Source of the DNA: Micavibrio sp.
Lineage (GTDB): Bacteria; Pseudomonadota; Alphaproteobacteria; Micavibrionales; Micavibrionaceae
Direction of reading: 5' to 3'
Assembly: GCA_012960155.1 (NCBI GenBank)
Contig: DUBU01000003.1
Span: 1 to 64,000, forward strand
DNA: 64,000 nt
Below the pieces are notes generated by a model. The model saw only the letters and a list, made by a program, of their open reading frames with translations. It did not search any database and was not told where the DNA came from. A program made the translations under genes and the position numbers. Within the stretch, counting starts at the first letter, position 1. Every line of letters starts with the position of its first letter. Shown here piece by piece: positions 5,160 to 60,568 of the stretch.

Positions 5160-6587
5160 CTATTTTCCTACTTCACGAGGACTTTGCATATATTCCTCAG
5201 GATTCAAGCGCCCGACACTTTCGAAAATACAACAATTCCTTCCACCATTTTTGGCTTCATAAAGGAATTTGTCAACGCGATCCAAAATTTCCTGCACTTC
5301 ATAGTCGCCCGGTTCAATCACAGCGCCGCCAATCGATGTGGAAATCGAAATCTCGCCTTCAGGCACCGAACATTTCACAGGCTTATCCGCAACAGCGCGA
5401 CGCAGGCGCTCGGCAATAAAATATGTCATATGCGGCGTTGTATCGGGCAAAACCACCACAAACTCTTCACCGCCCAGACGCGCCACCATATCAAAGCTTC
5501 GCAGATTATCCTGCAAGCGGTGGGCAAAGACTTTCAGCACCTCGTCCCCGGCAACGTGACCGTGCTTGTCATTTACTTCTTTAAAGTGGTCGATATCCAA
5601 AATCATCACACTCAAATTCTTTGCAGAGTCTTTGTGCGTTTTCAGCATTTTCTGCAAGTGAACGTCAAAATAGCGCCTGTTATAAAGCCCTGTCAGACTA
5701 TCTGTCAGCGCCATCGACAAGCTGTACTCATAAGATGTACGCAGACGTTCCTGAAACCTTTTGCGACGAATTTGTGTTCTGGCACGCGCCAATAGCTCAT
5801 TACGATCAACAGGGCGCAGAATATAATCATGGGCGCCAATCTCCAGACCGCGCGCAATACGATCCATATCTTCTTCGGAGGCTACCATCAAAATCGGAAT
5901 AGCGCGCGTTCTCTCATTCGAGCGCAGATGAGAACACAGACGCAGACCATCTTCATTTTTCAAATTCAAGCTGATGATCAGAAGATCAAAATCATGCTGT
6001 GATACGTATTCCATAGCATTCATGCCGCTATCGACAGGTATGACGTTATCATTATCCTGATGCAGGGTTTCAGCGATTTTATCGGCTTCGAAATTCAAAT
6101 CTTCAACGACGAGAACGCGGGCATTCTCAGTCGGCTCGTTCATCACATTGGCGTTATCATCTACCACACCCAGCTGCGTTGCCGTGCTTTCGCGGGCGCG
6201 CCACTCGTCTACGGTCATTTTCAAACGCACTAGTGAGCTCACGCGTGCCATAAGGGCTGTATCATTCACAGGTTTACTCAAGAAATCATCAGCGCCCGCT
6301 TCCAGACCACGCACTTTATCAACGCTATCTGTTAGAGCTGTCACCATAACTACAGGAATATGGGCTAGTTCCGGATTACCTTTGATACGTCGACACACCT
6401 CAAAGCCGTCCATGCCGGGCATCATGACGTCGAGCAAAATCAGATCAGGGCGATCAGAATCAGCAAGCTTTAACGCCTCTTCACCGCTCGTTGCGGTCAA
6501 AACATCGTAATACTCGCTGCTCAGCTTGGCTTCCAGCAGTTTTACGTTCGGCAAAATATCATCTACGACCAGTACGCGTGCAGACAT
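5160..6587 (-). CDS. pleD: PleD-type response regulator diguanylate cyclase
   Basis: The order is receiver, receiver-like adaptor, GGDEF, in 475 residues, as in Caulobacter PleD. Phosphorylation of the first receiver (D53 in LILLDVMMPG) should drive dimerisation and synthesis of cyclic-di-GMP. The second receiver lacks the phospho-acceptor aspartate (LLIISLNL) and probably serves dimerisation. The active site is GGEEF at residues 372-376, and the inhibitory RxxD site (RSFD) lies five residues upstream, so product feedback is expected. It follows divK on the same strand, the classical divK-pleD arrangement, and precedes the VasI-like gene. Confidence 0.95.
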   Translation of the reverse strand: MSARVLVVDDILPNVKLLEAKLSSEYYDVLTATSGEEALKLADSDRPDLILLDVMMPGMDGFEVCRRIKGNPELAHIPVVMVTALTDSVDKVRGLEAGADDFLSKPVNDTALMARVSSLVRLKMTVDEWRARESTATQLGVVDDNANVMNEPTENARVLVVEDLNFEADKIAETLHQDNDNVIPVDSGMNAMEYVSQHDFDLLIISLNLKNEDGLRLCSHLRSNERTRAIPILMVASEEDMDRIARGLEIGAHDYILRPVDRNELLARARTQIRRKRFQERLRTSYEYSLSMALTDSLTGLYNRRYFDVHLQKMLKTHKDSAKNLSVMILDIDHFKEVNDKHGHVAGDEVLKVFAHRLQDNLRSFDMVARLGGEEFVVVLPDTTPHMTYFIAERLRRAVADKPVKCSVPEGEISISTSIGGAVIEPGDYEVQEILDRVDKFLYEAKNGGRNCCIFESVGRLNPEEYMQSPREVGK

Positions 6588-8265: not shown

Positions 8266-9081
8266 ATGACAACTGAATTGATCAAAAACACAGAAATTGA
8301 AAAAGCACTCGCCACGGCGGGCGAAGGTCTTTTTCGCCATATCTTCAGAGAGGTTAATGTCGAAGACCAACAGACGAAGAACGAGCGTCTGAACGGTTAC
8401 AAGGGACAAAGCTCTGATGAACGTATGAACGAGCGTCTTGCCGCTATCAATAGTGCTTACGAGCATGATCGTGATGGATGGCAAAGGTGCATGGATGCCA
8501 CGGTTGCCCTCCTAAACCACGCGCATCGCATGATCGAGACGGCCGAGAACACCATTAAAGAGCAGAACAAACGCATTCATTCGCTAGAAACAATTGCGAC
8601 GACGGACGAGCTGACAGGCATCAAAAACCGTCGCGGTTTCTTCGAAGCGTTTGCCGGCGAGCTGGACCGCTGTGATCGCGGCCTTAGCGAAGGCGGGCTC
8701 TTGATGCTGATCGATCTTGATAATTTCAAAGCCATCAATGATACGCACGGCCACCAGGCTGGTGATGCCAGTCTGCGCCTTGTAGCAAGGACGCTACAGA
8801 ACGAAGTCCGCATGATGGACACGGCCGCGCGCTTAGGTGGTGATGAGTTCGTTTTGATTTTCTCAAACACGAACAAACAAAGCATTGCTCCGCGCGCTCA
8901 AGCGCTTGCGTGGCAGCTTAATCACCTGAGTCTGGCCTGGTACGGGGAAGAAATCCCCGTCCGGGCCTCCCTCGGGCTCCAGCCTTATAAGGCCGGTGAT
9001 GACATGGACAAGATTTTCAATGCTGCGGATAGTGCGCTGTATGCCGATAAATTCCGCAGAAAGAGAGCTAAACGCGCTTAG
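8266..9081 (+). CDS. cytosolic diguanylate cyclase (GGDEF)
   Basis: The 271-residue protein has no membrane segment. Residues 1-105 are helical and charged, ending in a probable coiled coil, and carry no domain I recognise. Residues 108-268 are a GGDEF domain with the conserved DELTGIKNRRGF entry motif, DLDNFKAINDTHGH metal site, intact GGDEF at 191-195 and an RxxD inhibitory site (RMMD, 182-185). It should convert two GTP into cyclic-di-GMP under product feedback. The start has a good ribosome site (AAGGGTGGG just upstream). It is transcribed away from eipB and ends at a strong terminator. Confidence 0.9.
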   Translation: MTTELIKNTEIEKALATAGEGLFRHIFREVNVEDQQTKNERLNGYKGQSSDERMNERLAAINSAYEHDRDGWQRCMDATVALLNHAHRMIETAENTIKEQNKRIHSLETIATTDELTGIKNRRGFFEAFAGELDRCDRGLSEGGLLMLIDLDNFKAINDTHGHQAGDASLRLVARTLQNEVRMMDTAARLGGDEFVLIFSNTNKQSIAPRAQALAWQLNHLSLAWYGEEIPVRASLGLQPYKAGDDMDKIFNAADSALYADKFRRKRAKRA

Positions 9082-49466: not shown

Positions 49467-50564
49467 TTAAAACTTGAAAACGGGGAAACCCCTTTTTTGT
49501 GGTGATTGCGCGGCATCTTGCAGATCACGCACCAGATTTTGCGCGGTCATTAATATTTGATCGATAGCACTTTGCGACATGGTTACTTCTTTAAAGCCAC
49601 TCGATAAATATGATGCATAGCCGTTCACGGCATTTTCAAACATGGCGACAGCCGTTTGTCTGGGGATGGCAGATCCTGATTTCAGATTTCGCGCGGTTGT
49701 TTGCAACATGGATAGGTATCCGCCCTCACCCCTTAATACGGCGGGACTATCAAAATACCGTGTGCTGTAACCGGGCTTTTTACCTAGCAACGCCCCGTGC
49801 AGGGCTAACAAATTCAAATAAACTGGACTATATGGCGCGTGAAGATTAAGGCGCGGCTCTATGGTCAGGCACTGACCCGCCGCTTTTTTAAAACGCAGCG
49901 AATATTCGCTGCTTGTCCAACTAGTCGTTTCGTAGTCCGCGGCTAGAAATGTACGAGGACCACAGTATACACGACGGCTCTCGATACTCTCTGCCAAGTA
50001 TGGCTTTACAAAGAATGCAGGAAAAGCCCGCTGCATGTCGATGACGTGTTTTGCCGTTTGGTCACGCAGACTTTTCTTCAGACAAGATACGCTGTTCTGC
50101 ATCACACTGAAGTGCCAATGCCCTTCGCCCGGGAAAACATCACAGCCAAACTGGTTTGCATGATCTCGCAAAATCGCTGCATATGACTGATAGGCAGTAC
50201 ATTGTTTTAAGGGATGTGTAGGTTTAAAGCGCGTTTCGACGACATTGCCATCCATGTCACAGCCTTCGTCATCATCAGGGTCAATGACATCTGCGGCAAT
50301 CAGCTGCGCACGCAAAGGCTGCAAAAAATACTCTTCGATTTTATCCATTGTTTCAAGATTAAGCGCCTTTAAAATCCACGGCTGACCAAACACATTCTGG
50401 CCATCGCGGACAAAATAACTTTCTATATCAGGGCCGAACTTGATATCCAGCGCTGTGCCTTGCGCCAAGCCATACTCCTCGCAAGCAAAAGCGGGCGGTG
50501 CAGCAAAAAATTGCTCCAGCCCCCGAATTTCCTGTATTAGTGTTTCTTGCAAGTCGCCGTTCAT
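49467..50564 (-). CDS. glutamine-synthetase-fold-like protein of unknown substrate
   Basis: The 365-residue protein has a pattern reminiscent of the GS/GCS carboxylate-amine ligase fold: DIESYFV, VETRFKPTHP, GEGHWHFSV (HxH) and IEPRLNLHAPYSPVYLNLLALHGALLG. In glutamine synthetase the corresponding parts bind metals and glutamate. No family could be named. No signal peptide. It diverges from pyk (starts 58 bases apart). TATAAT lies only four bases before its ATG, on the minus strand, suggesting a leaderless transcript. Confidence 0.5.
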   Translation of the reverse strand: MNGDLQETLIQEIRGLEQFFAAPPAFACEEYGLAQGTALDIKFGPDIESYFVRDGQNVFGQPWILKALNLETMDKIEEYFLQPLRAQLIAADVIDPDDDEGCDMDGNVVETRFKPTHPLKQCTAYQSYAAILRDHANQFGCDVFPGEGHWHFSVMQNSVSCLKKSLRDQTAKHVIDMQRAFPAFFVKPYLAESIESRRVYCGPRTFLAADYETTSWTSSEYSLRFKKAAGQCLTIEPRLNLHAPYSPVYLNLLALHGALLGKKPGYSTRYFDSPAVLRGEGGYLSMLQTTARNLKSGSAIPRQTAVAMFENAVNGYASYLSSGFKEVTMSQSAIDQILMTAQNLVRDLQDAAQSPQKRGFPVFKF

Positions 50565-50622
50565 GGCATTATACCAGTGGTTAAATAATTATCCGCAACA
50601 CCATAGCACCAACACATATATT

Positions 50623-52105
50623 ATGGCAAAAAAAGCAGCACAAATTATCCGTACCCGTCAGACAAAAATCGTTGCCACGCTCGGCCCTGCGTCAAGCGAT
50701 GAAGACATGATCCGCAAACTTTTCGAGGCGGGCGTTGATGTGTTCCGCATGAACTTCTCTCACGGTAGCCACGAAGACCACCAGAAGCGCTTTGATATTG
50801 TGCGCAAGCTGGAAAAAGAATTTTCACGTCCGATCGGCATTCTGGCCGATTTGCAAGGACCCAAGCTGCGTGTCGGCAAATTCAAGGACGGTTCTATTGC
50901 CTTGAAGAAAGGCATGGAGATTACTTTTGATCTGGATAAAACCGCAGGTGATGAAAAGCGCGTGAATTTGCCGCACCCTGAAATTATCGAAACGCTGGAT
51001 AAGGGCGATAAAATCCTGATGGATGACGGTAAGGTGCGCATGGAAATTACCGATAAAGGTAAGGATTTCCTGAAAGCCAAAGTCATTGCGGGGCAGAAGC
51101 TATCCGATAATAAAGGCCTGAACGTACCGGGCGTAGTACTGCCGATTGCTGCACTCACAGCCAAAGACCGCAAGGATTTAACGGCTGCCCTTAAGATGGG
51201 GGCGGACTGGATTGCGCTAAGTTTTGTGCAGAAGCCCGAAGATGTTGCCGAGGCGCGTAAGCTGATTGGCGGTAAGGCTGCGCTAATGGCCAAGATTGAA
51301 AAGCCGTCCGCGATTTTACACTTCACTCCTATTCTGGATCTGGTCGACGGTATCATGCTTGCGCGTGGCGATCTGGGCGTTGAAATTCCGCCTGAAGAAG
51401 TGCCTGCAGTTGTGACAGTGGTGGATCAGCAACTCCCCGTTTTGCCCGCCTGCAGTACAGAAAAAGATCGTCCGTCAGGTGCGTCACGCGGGTAAGCCGA
51501 TTATCGTGGCCACACAGATGCTGGAATCAATGATCGACAGTCCCGCGCCGACCCGCGCCGAAGCATCAGACGTAGCCACAGCTGTTTATGACGGTACGGA
51601 TGCCGTGATGCTGTCTGCTGAAACGGCGGCCGGTAAATATCCGCTGGAAGCTGTCGGCATTATGGACCGTATCTGTAAGAACACCGAAAAAGACGAAGTT
51701 TATCGCCGTAACATTGAGGCCGATGATATGGAGCAAGAGGGCGATTCATCCGACGCCATCACAACATCCGCCTATTACGTTGCCAAAAGCATTAACGCCG
51801 CTTGTATCGTGAACTACACAACATCAGGCTCAACGGCACTGCGTATGTCGCGTCAGCGCCCCGGGCGTCCGATTATGTGCCTGACACAAAACAATGACGT
51901 GGCGCACCGTTTGTGCCTGTCTTATGGCGTGCACCCCGTCCATGTCACCGATGTCGATGATACAGGCAGTGCCGTGCGCAAAGCATCCGCTCTTGCGATC
52001 GCGCAGCAGCTTGCCAAAACAGGCGACCGTCTTGTTCTAACCGCAGGCGTACCTTTCGGCACCCCTGGCAGCACGAATATCCTCCGTGTTGCGTGGGTTG
52101 AGTAA
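50623..52105 (+). pseudogene. pyk: pyruvate kinase, disrupted by a 46-nt insertion
   Basis: Pyruvate kinase makes pyruvate and ATP from PEP in glycolysis. The first part (TKIVATLGPAS, FRMNFSHG, the MAKIEKPSA and DGIMLARGDLGVEIPPEEVPAV motifs) is intact from ATG 50623. The frame then runs into unrelated codons to a stop at 51495. The second part, from [19 protein letters not shown] to [18 protein letters not shown] and the C-terminus, is in another frame ending at 52105. Removing 46 nt between two GCCTGCAGT repeats (51402-51410 and 51448-51456) restores one continuous reading frame. Recent insertion or assembly error is likely. Confidence 0.85.
51402..51456. repeat. 9-bp direct repeat flanking a 46-nt insertion in pyk
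   Basis: GCCTGCAGT occurs at 51402-51410 and again at 51448-51456. The 37 bases between show no match to a known element and no clear terminal inverted repeats. The repeat offset of 46 bases causes the pyk frameshift. Confidence 0.85.
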
Positions 52106-56650: not shown

Positions 56651-57574
56651 TTAACGGCTGGCAACCACCGTGTTTTGAGGGGCTGTGTGCAGCCACCAAG
56701 CATCGCGGTTGATCGAGAAGATCGGGCGGTAGTTATCGACGTAGCGCGCGTCTTCGGCTTTCGGGTTTTGATTATCCAGAATTTTAGCACCTGTATCTGT
56801 GTAAACGATCAGTACGGCGTGCGGGATATCTTTTTGAATATCGTGAACAATGGCCACGCGCATACGGTTTTCAGGGAAGCCCAGTGCCCGCAATGATGCA
56901 TATTTGGCAATCGCGAAGTCTTCGCAGTCACCGCCGCGCTGGAAAAACTCCACAGGCGTTGACCAGTAATCGCTTTTGCCCCAATTGCGGCTGTCGACGA
57001 TATAATCAGTTTGGTTCACGAATGTATTGACGCGTTCCACCATTGTATCCATCGGCAAGTCCTTGAATTCGGACAGGCTGCGTTTCCACGCATCAATCGT
57101 GCGCTTATTTAATGGCTGTTTCATGGCGACTTCGTAACGATCAAACATGGATGTCCATTTGGTGAAGGCTTTCAGGTCAGAAGAGCGGCGTTCATCACTG
57201 CCGAACAGGGCAGGATAAGAGCTCACCTTTGTGAAGGCCTCTGATACCACACTCATTTGACCGGGAATGTCCTTAATAGAACCTGCGCGGGCAGGTTTAA
57301 TGCCAAAGCTGGAGAATGTTAAGAAGATGCCCAGTGTCCAGGCAAGGCAGCGCAGCGAGAATTGCTGGCCCAATGTATTATATAAGTCGCGACGTGTTAC
57401 AAGATTTTGAGAGAGGAGAATACGGCCCAGATTACGGCCATCGGTTTTCTGAGTATGCAGCGCGTAACGCAGTTCTTTTGGTGTAAGCACACCGTTCATA
57501 ACCAGAAGTTCGCCCAGACGCTTACGCGCTAACAGAGCCTTCATTTTTGTCATCAACCCGCGATTTTTTGGCAT
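56651..57574 (-). CDS. MshEN-domain / LapG-like transglutaminase-fold cysteine protease fusion
   Basis: The 307-residue protein starts with a tandem MshEN-like motif. The first copy, R19-L-G...G28...L35...L39...Q42, fits the cyclic-di-GMP-binding consensus; the second, L49-G50...L64...L68...Q71, lacks the first R and the G at motif position 10. A hydrophobic segment follows (74-93). The C-terminal domain is a bacterial transglutaminase-like cysteine peptidase of the LapG type with C217 (RGGDCEDF), H252 (IPHAVLIV) and D267 (ILDNQ), all present. LapG cleaves periplasmic adhesins and is normally held by the separate receptor LapD. Here sensor and protease seem to share one chain. It is monocistronic. 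Confidence 0.78.
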   Translation of the reverse strand: MPKNRGLMTKMKALLARKRLGELLVMNGVLTPKELRYALHTQKTDGRNLGRILLSQNLVTRRDLYNTLGQQFSLRCLAWTLGIFLTFSSFGIKPARAGSIKDIPGQMSVVSEAFTKVSSYPALFGSDERRSSDLKAFTKWTSMFDRYEVAMKQPLNKRTIDAWKRSLSEFKDLPMDTMVERVNTFVNQTDYIVDSRNWGKSDYWSTPVEFFQRGGDCEDFAIAKYASLRALGFPENRMRVAIVHDIQKDIPHAVLIVYTDTGAKILDNQNPKAEDARYVDNYRPIFSINRDAWWLHTAPQNTVVASR

Positions 57575-57694: not shown

Positions 57695-59191
57695 ATGGCG
57701 GAAAAAATGTCGGTAGCCCCTGAAAATCTTGGCAAAATCGTAGACTCCATGGCCGGTAAAACGGTTGTGGTTATCGGCGATATCATGCTGGATTCCTTTA
57801 TATATGGCTCAACTGACCGTATGTCCCCCGAAGCACCCGTTCCCGTGTTGCTGAAGAGCCGCGAGAAGACCATGGCGGGCGGCGCGGGTAATGCCGCGGC
57901 CAATTTGCAGGCTTTGGGCGTTACCACGCAAGTGATCGCGCTGATCGGTAATGATGCGCATGGTCAGACTGTCCGTGATTTACTCGGTAGCGCTGCGGCA
58001 GGTTTGATTGCCACCGATTCGCGCCCGACCGCTATTAAAACCCGCTACGTTGCGGGACATCAGCAATTATTGCGCGTTGATGAGGAGATCAGCGGCGATC
58101 TGGACGCCGGCCTTACCGCCGAGATTATCAAACGTGCCGAATCACTTATCCCGTCTGCAGATGCGGTGATTTTATCGGATTACGGCAAGGGCGTCTTAAG
58201 CGCAGCGGTCATTAAAGCCGCCATTCAAGCTGCGCAAAATGCGGGCATACCTGTGCTGGTGGATCCGAAGAAGAAGGATTACAGCCTTTATAAAGGGGCG
58301 GATATTGTCACGCCGAATAAGAAAGAGCTATCCGAAGCTACAGGTGGCATGGCTGTGAATAGCGATGACGAGGTCATTGCCGCGTCCAAAGCGCTGCTTT
58401 CGGCATCGGGGATTAAAAATGTAGTCGCGACCCGATCGGAAAAAGGTATGAGCCTGACATTGCAAGATGGCGATACGGTGCATTACGGCGCAACAGCGCA
58501 GGAAGTATTCGATGTTTCTGGTGCTGGCGATACGGTGATTGCAACTTTGGCTGGGGCATTAGCGGCAGGTGCCGATCTTGAGGCAGCTGTGGCGCTAGCA
58601 AACGAGGCAGGCGGTGTTGCTGTTTCCTATGCGGGCACGACAGCCGTTAAAGCAGCGGCGTTAAAAGACGTATTAAATAAAGGCGCGCAGACTAGTTTTA
58701 CAGCAAACGTGCGTAATTGGGATGATGCGGCGGCGCAAATTAAGGACTGGCAGTCTCAGGGTCTGAAGGTCGGTTTTACCAATGGCTGTTTTGATATTGT
58801 GCATTTCGGGCACGTAAACTATCTGGCACAAGCCCGCGCGCGCTGCGATAAGCTTGTTTTGGGGCTGAACCATGATGCGTCTGTGCGCATTCTCAAAGGG
58901 CCTGAACGCCCGCTACATGATCAGAATTCCCGTGCTGCTGTCATTGGTGCACTGGCCAGTGTCGACATGGTTGTCTTCTTCGGTGCCGAACAAGACGGCG
59001 AAGACAACACGCCGTCCGCCGCACTGGATGCCATTCGTCCGGATGTGATCTTTAAAGGTGGTGATTACACGATTGATCAACTGCCCGAAGCCCAAGTTGT
59101 TCTGGCCTATGGCGGTGAAGTTGACATTATGCCGCTCTATGAAGGTCACAGCACCACAAACACCATTAATAAGATGAAGCAAACGGGCTGA
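57695..59191 (+). CDS. hldE: bifunctional heptose-7-phosphate kinase / heptose-1-phosphate adenylyltransferase
   Basis: HldE makes ADP-heptose for the LPS inner core: the kinase domain phosphorylates heptose-7-phosphate and the nucleotidyltransferase adds AMP. The N-terminal ribokinase fold shows VVIGDIMLDSFI, GGAGNAAAN and the GAGDT catalytic loop; the C-terminal domain begins FTNGCFDIVHFGHVNYL. The 498-residue length is typical. TAAAAT stands eight bases before the ATG. It diverges from the protease gene with a 120-bp gap. Confidence 0.95.
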   Translation: MAEKMSVAPENLGKIVDSMAGKTVVVIGDIMLDSFIYGSTDRMSPEAPVPVLLKSREKTMAGGAGNAAANLQALGVTTQVIALIGNDAHGQTVRDLLGSAAAGLIATDSRPTAIKTRYVAGHQQLLRVDEEISGDLDAGLTAEIIKRAESLIPSADAVILSDYGKGVLSAAVIKAAIQAAQNAGIPVLVDPKKKDYSLYKGADIVTPNKKELSEATGGMAVNSDDEVIAASKALLSASGIKNVVATRSEKGMSLTLQDGDTVHYGATAQEVFDVSGAGDTVIATLAGALAAGADLEAAVALANEAGGVAVSYAGTTAVKAAALKDVLNKGAQTSFTANVRNWDDAAAQIKDWQSQGLKVGFTNGCFDIVHFGHVNYLAQARARCDKLVLGLNHDASVRILKGPERPLHDQNSRAAVIGALASVDMVVFFGAEQDGEDNTPSAALDAIRPDVIFKGGDYTIDQLPEAQVVLAYGGEVDIMPLYEGHSTTNTINKMKQTG

Positions 59192-59971: not shown

Positions 59972-59983
59972 GGTGGCTTGGTT

Positions 59984-60568
59984 GTGAGCGTTCTGCCTAT
60001 TCGCCTTCGTTCTGCGAAATCATTTAAAGTCCTTTTGTTAAGTGCTGTCTGTGCTTGCAGCCTGTCTGCTTGTGCTGCGGCACTGACCAGTATGGATTCG
60101 GGCAACGATAACGTTGCGACACTGGCACAAGACAGTTACGGTGCGGCGGATATGCTGATCCAGCAGTCACGCAGCTTTATTGACCGTGATACCAAGTTAG
60201 AGATCACACCGCTGACAGACCTTGATAATCCGGGCGAAGTCACGAATTTCGGGCATATGATTTCAAGCCAGATCGCCAGTCGCTTTGTGCAGCTGGGTTA
60301 TAATGTGGTACTGAGCCCCATGGAACCAGGATTTGAAAACGCTGCTGTGCCGATGCAAACCGCGCAGCCCGGTAGCGGCGTTGCCGATAAAACGATTATC
60401 GCAGGCCGGTATGCCCGTGCGAAAAACGATGTGCTGATTAATCTGCGATTGATTGAAAACGGTACAGGCCGCGTTCTGGCCTCTTACGATTACGCCGTAG
60501 ATTACACGCGCGATGTCAAAGAGCTGAGCCAGACACACGCCGAGAAAACCGATAAATCGATTTTCTAA
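59984..60568 (+). CDS. FlgO-like lipoprotein
   Basis: A lipoprotein signal (VCACSLSAC) is followed by a domain of about 150 residues that fits the FlgO pattern: GAADMLIQQS at the start, ITPLTDLDNPGEVTNFG, SSQIASRFVQLGYNVV and a C-terminal GRYARAKNDVLINLRLIENGTG. FlgO is an outer-membrane flagellar accessory in Vibrio, but no flagellar gene is in the window. The start is GTG 59984; a TTG at 59978 lies too close to AAGG. It is 194 residues. Confidence 0.7.
   Translation: MSVLPIRLRSAKSFKVLLLSAVCACSLSACAAALTSMDSGNDNVATLAQDSYGAADMLIQQSRSFIDRDTKLEITPLTDLDNPGEVTNFGHMISSQIASRFVQLGYNVVLSPMEPGFENAAVPMQTAQPGSGVADKTIIAGRYARAKNDVLINLRLIENGTGRVLASYDYAVDYTRDVKELSQTHAEKTDKSIF

Follow-up and report, generated by a model that had tools for sequence, protein, structure and literature searches.

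One gene of Micavibrio sp. encodes both an MshE-related c-di-GMP domain (MshEN) and a LapG-type protease, and this fusion is, in the sample examined, a trait of the order. The gene lies in a stretch of 64,000 nucleotides that was analysed as a whole (the window) and specifies a 307-residue protein, P0001, the parts of which are set out in Table 1. The fusion had been proposed in an initial annotation; both profiles match within the single 307-residue frame, and it was thus confirmed as real. Direct reading of the DNA gave an ATG start codon with AGAGGG nine bases upstream. A chance frame or a wrong-strand artefact was rejected, since the plus-strand translation contains stops and the N-terminal part is conserved across the order. 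A structural model of P0001, built from 43 homologues, had a mean pLDDT of 83 and a pTM of 0.60, with residues 93–113 falling below 50.

Table 1. Positions in the window, strand and evidence for P0001, its parts and other features discussed in the text
Feature	Position	Strand	Evidence
Gene for the MshEN-leader BTLCP protease, 307 aa	56651..57574	minus	ORF, family profiles, conservation in the order
MshEN domain, aa 19-71 (motif 1 aa 19-42, 5-residue spacer, motif 2 aa 48-71)	57362..57520	minus	NF053729
R75 and weakly hydrophobic segment aa 76-92 (h-region)	57299..57352	minus	conservation, model, hydrophobicity
A95-x-A97, predicted signal peptidase I site, cut after A97	57284..57292	minus	conservation
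Predicted mature periplasmic protease, aa 98-307 (BTLCP / Peptidase_C93)	56654..57283	minus	PF06035, LapG folds
Catalytic Cys217, within G-D-C-E-D (D216, E218 calcium-site-type)	56924..56926	minus	invariant 64/64
Catalytic His252	56819..56821	minus	invariant 64/64
Catalytic Asp267	56774..56776	minus	invariant 64/64
Divergent neighbour, presumably hldE-like	57695..59191	plus	adjoins the fusion in 41/48 loci, window included (some flanks cut by contig ends)
FlgO-domain protein	59978-60568	plus	PF17680 E 1.5e-14; near the fusion in 22/48 loci, window included (some flanks cut by contig ends)
Response regulator with GGDEF	5160..6587	minus	PF00072, PF00990
GGDEF protein	8266..9081	plus	PF00990 E 7.1e-38

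The published MshEN consensus consists of two 24-residue motifs, RLGxx(LVI)(LVI)xxG(LVI)(LVI)xxxxLxxxLxxQ, with a 5-residue spacer. The NCBIfam model of the MshE-related c-di-GMP domain, NF053729, matched P0001 with E 7.2e-15 and 54.5 bits (cut-off 38), and matched the same place in the whole-genome search, while MshE (5htl), PilF (6f8l) and PilB chains were the PDB sequence matches of this part. Motif 1 is complete and the spacer is exactly five residues, which places the domain in the family. The initial annotation had the consensus matched twice; this held in full for motif 1, but motif 2 departs from it at N48 and at N57, which takes the place of the turn glycine. Measured against the relaxed motif (PMC5013675), only N57 departs. 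Motif 2 is the weaker motif, its first Arg being replaced by Pro in 38/64 relatives, a change that the relaxed motif of those authors tolerates (PMC5013675). The Pfam MshEN model PF05157 did not list P0001 at E 1, and its whole-genome match was only on another gene (C17).

The positions corresponding to the ligand contacts of MshE, as described in PMC5013675, are strongly conserved. G21, L35, G50 and Q71 are present in all 64 sequences, and L68, L39, L64 and Q42 in 63, 61, 58 and 54, respectively. Foldseek aligned the P0001 model with MshE carrying c-di-GMP (5htl_B) at an rmsd of 1.4 over 57 columns with 46% identity, the E value of 0.12 reflecting the shortness of the matched stretch. A value of 0.35 uM is given for c-di-GMP binding by MshEN_N alone, a 62-residue piece (PMC5013675), and we infer from the conserved residues that the MshEN domain of P0001 would bind it too.

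The second half of P0001 belongs to the BTLCP family, with PF06035 (Peptidase_C93) matching residues 178–273 at E 2.6e-20 and 73.3 bits (cut-off 27). Its nearest solved structures by sequence are those of LapG (4fgo, 4u65), and LapG structures matched the model in Foldseek at E 5e-11, with 32–34% identity in the alignments. The assignment of a LapG-type protease with an intact C217, H252 and D267 was thus borne out; these three residues, together with D216, E218 and D219, are invariant in the 64 distinct homologues. P0001 reached 106.4 bits with the LapG equivalog NF045674, below the cut-off of 320. It is the one Peptidase_C93 protein found in the window's genome.

A hydrophobic segment had also been noted behind the MshEN domain, and is present at residues 76–92. 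The junction has a regular layout: Q71, three residues, R75, the hydrophobic stretch, K/R, and then A/S/V/T-x-A. R75 is found in 64/64 of the counted sequences, with Lys in several more distant members, and the hydrophobic stretch has a median of 17 residues to the next charged residue (His counted). The best 15-residue Kyte-Doolittle mean has a median of 1.92, compared with 2.40 for the signal regions of plain BTLCPs and 2.21 for the peaks of a transporter, both small yardsticks (11 hand-picked signal regions; 10 peaks of one transporter). The segment is thus weaker than membrane helices, and weaker than plain BTLCP signal regions too. A membrane-insertion sum had a median of 5.7 over 19 residues, Lys included, and was left out of the argument.

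Behind this segment, residue counts give the features of a Sec signal: the n-region charge R75, an h-region, a small residue at −3 and Ala at −1. The −1 Ala occurs in 64/64 sequences and at the same place in further members read later, and position −3 is A in 40, S in 16, V in 5, T in 2 and P in 1 (A/S/V/T in 63/64). Between R75 and E128 no residue but this Ala is invariant, and it lies inside a stretch that is disordered in the model. The K/R at position 93, between the hydrophobic stretch and AxA in 57/64, is unusual for a signal peptide and counts against reading the segment as a Sec leader. Cleavage by signal peptidase I after A97 is nevertheless likely as a prediction, because the −1 Ala is invariant in a disordered stretch and two orthologues without MshEN have such a segment. 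Cut there, sensor and protease would separate, and c-di-GMP could therefore not act on the mature enzyme; any coupling would more probably take place when the protease is exported or released than through transmembrane allostery. The initial annotation had envisaged one intact chain with the sensor inside and the protease outside the cell. The weak hydrophobic stretch, the signal-peptidase-I-like site and the two relatives without MshEN argue against this. It had itself named a cleaved signal peptide separating the domains as evidence against its proposal, and such a peptide is now predicted from the A/S/V/T-x-A site with its invariant Ala (64/64).

The distribution of the fusion was followed across genus, family and order in 58 genomes, one of them that of the window. 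P0001 had a match in 54/58, and MshEN and protease were read in one frame in 50/58, so that the search for further MshEN-BTLCP fusions called for at the outset was productive. The eight genomes without a one-frame fusion (G017, G018, G029, G039, G004, G057, G034 and G041) comprise several cases. The first four had no P0001 match (G029 is 98% complete, the others 62–84%), the fusion of G004 is split by frame (L028), and that of G057 is cut by contig ends. G034 (L214) and G041 (L223) have an orthologous protease directly behind a signal-like hydrophobic segment, without MshEN, reflecting either natural loss or the ancestral state. These two genomes keep the protease and the secretion ATPase without MshEN, and the sensor is therefore dispensable in some lineages. 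A second collection contained 49 loci, 47 of them matching from residue 6 or earlier. The conservation alignment had 79 rows, of which 64 distinct sequences were counted; 11 duplicates were dropped, as were L028 and L070 (frame broken) and L079 and L080 (no fusion), and members read later stand outside the count.

At the level of the class, 127 of 385 sampled genomes had a BTLCP match, and among the matches listed MshEN with protease occurred only in the window's family (4 genomes). G332, considered as a fusion outside the order because its match to the query starts from residue 54, proved on reading to have an ordinary signal region, and those plain BTLCPs of other families that were read have no MshEN. 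Two further loci were recorded separately. L094 (G044:C9:500-9000) contains six BTLCP-like ORFs with no MshEN match, mostly with GDCKD or GDCQD at the Cys and one with AECKA. L097 (G051:C1:685000-687500) is a 102-residue ORF with MshEN and the hydrophobic segment and no in-frame cargo, either a free-standing leader or a broken gene; G051 also has an intact fusion.

The receptor that controls LapG elsewhere was sought with the profile LapD_MoxY_N. No LapD was found in the window's genome or its 57 relatives (0/58), as the initial annotation had asked to be checked; the 14 control genomes were silent too, and the profile's own control was positive, with a match at E 7.6e-30 in a genome with a LapG relative. 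HD_5 (HD-GYP) matched in 32/58 genomes, in ORFs of 215–451 residues except one of 731 residues in G041; the single match in the genome of the window is an ORF of 232 residues. A receptor of the size of DvhD (an HD_5 ORF over 500 residues) was thus not found in 57/58 genomes, the window's included. The receptor search consisted of these two profiles.

A Lap-type secretion system is widespread in the same genomes. The LssB/LapB-type T1SS ATPase scored above the curated cut-off in 54/58, many with a second copy, and in 0/14 control genomes; the window's genome (G000) has two, on C12 (918.6 bits) and C29 (882.2 bits). G029, G030, G039 and G054 fell below the cut-off, and in the last three the best match is a partial stretch, apparently from a contig fragment. 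G029 has neither a P0001 match nor an ATPase above cut-off, and a weak sub-cut-off match to Peptidase_C93; as a single case with that weak match, it was not used as an instance of co-loss of protease and secretion system. The operon on C12 runs adhesin, TolC family (TIGR01844), ABC, HlyD (TIGR01843). The adhesin (L160) has 2752 residues, with T1SS-143 repeats, a VWA domain and a T1SS_VCA0849 C-terminal target domain. In the two adhesins scanned, Pfam BapA_N gave 29.6 for L168, from a relative (cut-off 27), and 18.2 for L160, the window genome's own, and the NCBIfam model of the BapA-type N-terminus stayed below cut-off in both.

Three type 1 operons were seen in the window's genome. A second Lap-type operon with an RTX-type substrate lies on C29 (L161) and also occurs in G024 (L167), in both cases with what we take to be a CHASE2-like membrane protein. 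The third (L163, G000:C19:50000-69900) has a 1123-residue substrate, and the large ORFs beside it are presumably sensor-kinase-like and response-regulator-like.

LapG and DvhG act on a consensus of a targeting helix followed by [T/A/P]AAG, with the cut between the alanines (PMC13090378). The N-terminal part of the 2752-residue adhesin carries QELSDIE-PAAG-EGAGG, a LapG-type site (IEPAAG). Adhesin flanks were collected from 22 genomes, and the 16 with an N-terminus of 876 residues or more were counted. All 16, from 16 genomes, have [TPA]AAG within the first 300 residues. In every one of them at least one copy reads (I/V)E[PTA]AAG, and a stretch rich in glycine comes after it in most. When these 300 residues were shuffled, 1.7/16 were expected to have the motif, and the rest of the adhesins has 0.074 per 300 residues. 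Two adhesins added later and outside the 16 (G002, G024) both have (I/V)EPAAG, and that of G015, a 5′-open fragment, has PAAG without the preceding (I/V)E. No adhesin N-terminus was seen in the fetched flanks of G019, G023 and G009. The second T1SS substrate of G024 (L167, 1186 residues) has no AAG motif in its first 260 residues. With Lap-type secretion and the adhesin motif added to the similarity, the case for a LapG-like role is stronger, and the P0001 protease probably cuts the cell's giant surface adhesin.

The gene for P0001 is not linked to adhesin or secretion genes, and its neighbourhood was discarded as a clue to the substrate, the conserved neighbours being the presumed hldE-like gene, a 218-residue protein without a Pfam match and the FlgO-domain protein. 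We do not count the hldE-like gene as belonging to the mechanism. The two diguanylate cyclases reported earlier for the window were recovered as two GGDEF proteins by PF00990 (E 7.1e-38 and 8.5e-48) and are a possible source of c-di-GMP for P0001. Elsewhere in the window, two overlapping plus-strand frames (50440-51495 and 51479-52105) lie where the ORFs of relatives in the cluster have a median of 476 residues; the gene, which we take to be pyruvate kinase, appears split by either a frameshift or an assembly error.

We propose, with about an even chance of being right, that in P0001 the order has its own form of the Lap adhesin switch, in which a c-di-GMP receptor in the protease's own export leader controls its export or release. 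The proposal builds, at the level of sequence, on the fusion and its conservation, the ligand-type and catalytic residues, the search that found no LapD, Lap-type secretion with the adhesin motif, and AxA. The MshEN domain would fold in the cytosol, and the weak hydrophobic segment directly behind it would serve as the Sec signal. Signal peptidase I would then cut after A97 and free a 210-residue calcium-dependent LapG-type protease in the periplasm. There the protease would cut giant BapA/LapA-like adhesins, presumably including that of the window's genome, at [TPA]AAG behind the N-terminal retention region, releasing adhesin and cell. More speculatively, c-di-GMP bound to MshEN, whose last helix is continuous with the signal helix in the model, would hold back translocation or cleavage. 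At high c-di-GMP the adhesin would stay on the surface; on a fall, the protease would be exported and cut, and the adhesin cleaved. This direction of control follows the logic of the known systems, in which high c-di-GMP means a retained adhesin, and is as speculative as the gating. Several points count against the leader reading: a folded domain ahead of a Sec signal is unusual, motif 2 is imperfect, PF05157 is blind to the domain, G034 and G041 lack MshEN, the gene is unlinked to the adhesin, and one-way release would be less reversible than control by LapD.

An uncleaved N-in/C-out receptor-protease, in which c-di-GMP alters the reach or activity of the protease via the membrane helix, or by clustering, would account for the continuous helix of the model, which runs from the MshEN domain into the membrane segment (residues 61–88), and for the K/R after that segment in most members. 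There is also a precedent in DvhG, a Lap-type protease anchored in the membrane by an N-terminal helix and a long linker (PMC13090378). However, the invariant A97 with its small −3 neighbour stands in an otherwise variable, predicted disordered stretch, the segment is less hydrophobic than the helices of the one transporter compared, and allostery through a disordered linker is unlikely. The same unit also stands before proteins that do not look like enzymes, and we consider this explanation rather unlikely. The signal-peptidase-like site also fits an ordinary secreted protease, one in which, after cleavage, the MshEN of the leader has an unrelated or lost role, and control is by expression, calcium or another receptor. 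The imperfect motif 2 and the MshEN-less genes of G034 and G041 agree with this, as does Caulobacter HvyA, which is controlled by abundance (PMC4241560). A useless leader would not be expected to conserve its ligand-type residues like catalytic ones (64/64), however, and the searches for LapD and for an HD-GYP protein as large as DvhD found neither in the genome; this possibility appears improbable.

The protease might instead act on surface polysaccharide or other envelope targets, as an HvyA-like enzyme, and not on a giant adhesin. The gene has a neighbour that is presumably hldE-like, and the protease shares up to 48% identity with plain BTLCPs from the class, more than with LapG (32–34%). 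The close plain relatives include HvyA-type BTLCPs, and the spacings C-H 35 and H-D 15 are close to the 34/15 of HvyA (C192-H226-D241; positions from PMC4241560). Against this, [TPA]AAG occurs in the N-terminal part of every counted adhesin (16/16) and the Lap-type ATPase in 54/58 genomes, and we regard a polysaccharide or other envelope target as very improbable.

The leader arrangement recurs with other cargos, which bears on the proposal that the leader controls export. Three loci of the same class, L146 (L091; G393:C259), L124 (L145; G343:C69) and L131 (G251:C68), encode three MshEN units, a signal-like segment and a cargo without a Pfam match that is beta-rich by eye; in L124 a pilin-like gene, also without a Pfam match, follows. 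L148 (G117:C27), which has a single MshEN before a similar cargo, lies about 1 kb away from an usher gene (PF00577 E 1.6e-15), and L149 (G124:C5) has one MshEN and a weakly FecR-like domain (E 0.026, below cut-off). In an alignment with the protease family, MshEN, segment and AxA are in register. L124, L131 and L146 share with the protease family a distance of 26 residues from Q71 to the −1 Ala. In L148 this distance is shorter by three residues and the Arg stands at +2/+3, while L149 is without a clean AxA there.

In a phylum-wide search, 209/398 genomes matched the module, and among the matches listed most end near position 72 in longer ORFs (MshEN only). Ten regions were taken from this search, eight of which (L190–L197, from G444, G592, G559, G676, G493, G489, G566 and G607, in other classes of the phylum) encode proteins of 236–282 residues with the junction Q-x3-R, an Ala-ended signal-like segment and a related cargo. 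L193–L197 are alike (66–91% to L194), and all five have rplS- and trmD-like genes beside them, a gene order that we take to be that of P. aeruginosa PA3740. Wang et al. (PMC5013675) name PA3740 as a swarming protein in which MshEN is joined to a domain of uncharacterised function. That one unit precedes a protease as well as several proteins unrelated to it points to control of export, a step common to all the cargos, and away from enzyme-specific allostery. We tentatively suggest, while thinking it doubtful, a class of portable ligand-binding signal peptides, consisting of one or more MshEN units, a near-fixed junction (the motif-2 Gln, usually followed by x3-Arg, as judged from the sequences), a weak Sec signal and AxA, in which c-di-GMP would gate export or cleavage of the cargo. 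Such a class would perhaps take in the adhesin protease and PA3740-like proteins as cargos, along with a weakly FecR-like protein and those encoded close to an usher or pilin-like gene. If gating is true, the leader class would be new in kind, and since the unit recurs before other cargos, including the PA3740-like proteins, laboratory strains offer a way to test it.

In the literature searched, with most subscription papers outside its scope, no MshEN-BTLCP fusion, no MshEN signal peptide and no such second-messenger gating of cargo export was found. LapD-LapG is the textbook case of inside-out control of adhesion by c-di-GMP. P0001 and its partners resemble LapD-LapG-LapA of Pseudomonas fluorescens in the BTLCP C-H-D and calcium-site residues, the TolC/ABC/HlyD operon, and a giant T1SS adhesin with [T/A/P]AAG behind its N-terminal region. 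They differ in that no LapD was found and the receptor domain is an MshEN in the protease's own leader; in addition, the protease gene lies apart from the adhesin, and its product, at 106 bits, falls short of the 320 required by the LapG equivalog. DvhD-DvhG of Desulfovibrio vulgaris shares the cleavage consensus, an N-terminal membrane segment on the protease and, if our proposal is right, c-di-GMP control of a BTLCP by something other than LapD. DvhD, however, is a separate dCache/PAS/HD-GYP protein, whereas here 57/58 genomes had no HD_5 ORF over 500 residues, and DvhG, unlike P0001, has a linker of about 180 residues. The text of the DvhD-DvhG paper (PMC13090378) has 0 occurrences of MshEN. 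HvyA, the Caulobacter BTLCP of capsule restriction, has a signal sequence and similar catalytic spacing but, in PMC4241560, is described as signal sequence and BTLCP domain only, with no MshEN, controlled by abundance and acting on capsulation.

MshE, PilB, NfrB and PA3740 have the same two 24-residue motifs and 5-residue spacer, and the PA3740-like proteins, identified by gene order, also have the layout of MshEN and signal-like segment. The cargo of P0001 is a protease, unlike those of MshE, PilB and NfrB, and includes no ATPase or glycosyltransferase. Sensor and blade of a known two-protein switch are thus encoded as one gene. If the leader is indeed cut off, c-di-GMP would have to work at the stage of export or release, since the mature enzyme would be out of its reach; gating of a signal peptide by a messenger would add a new point of control. 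Micavibrio is a bacterial predator, and an order related to it seems to run a Lap switch without LapD, which would make a third solution besides LapD and DvhD.
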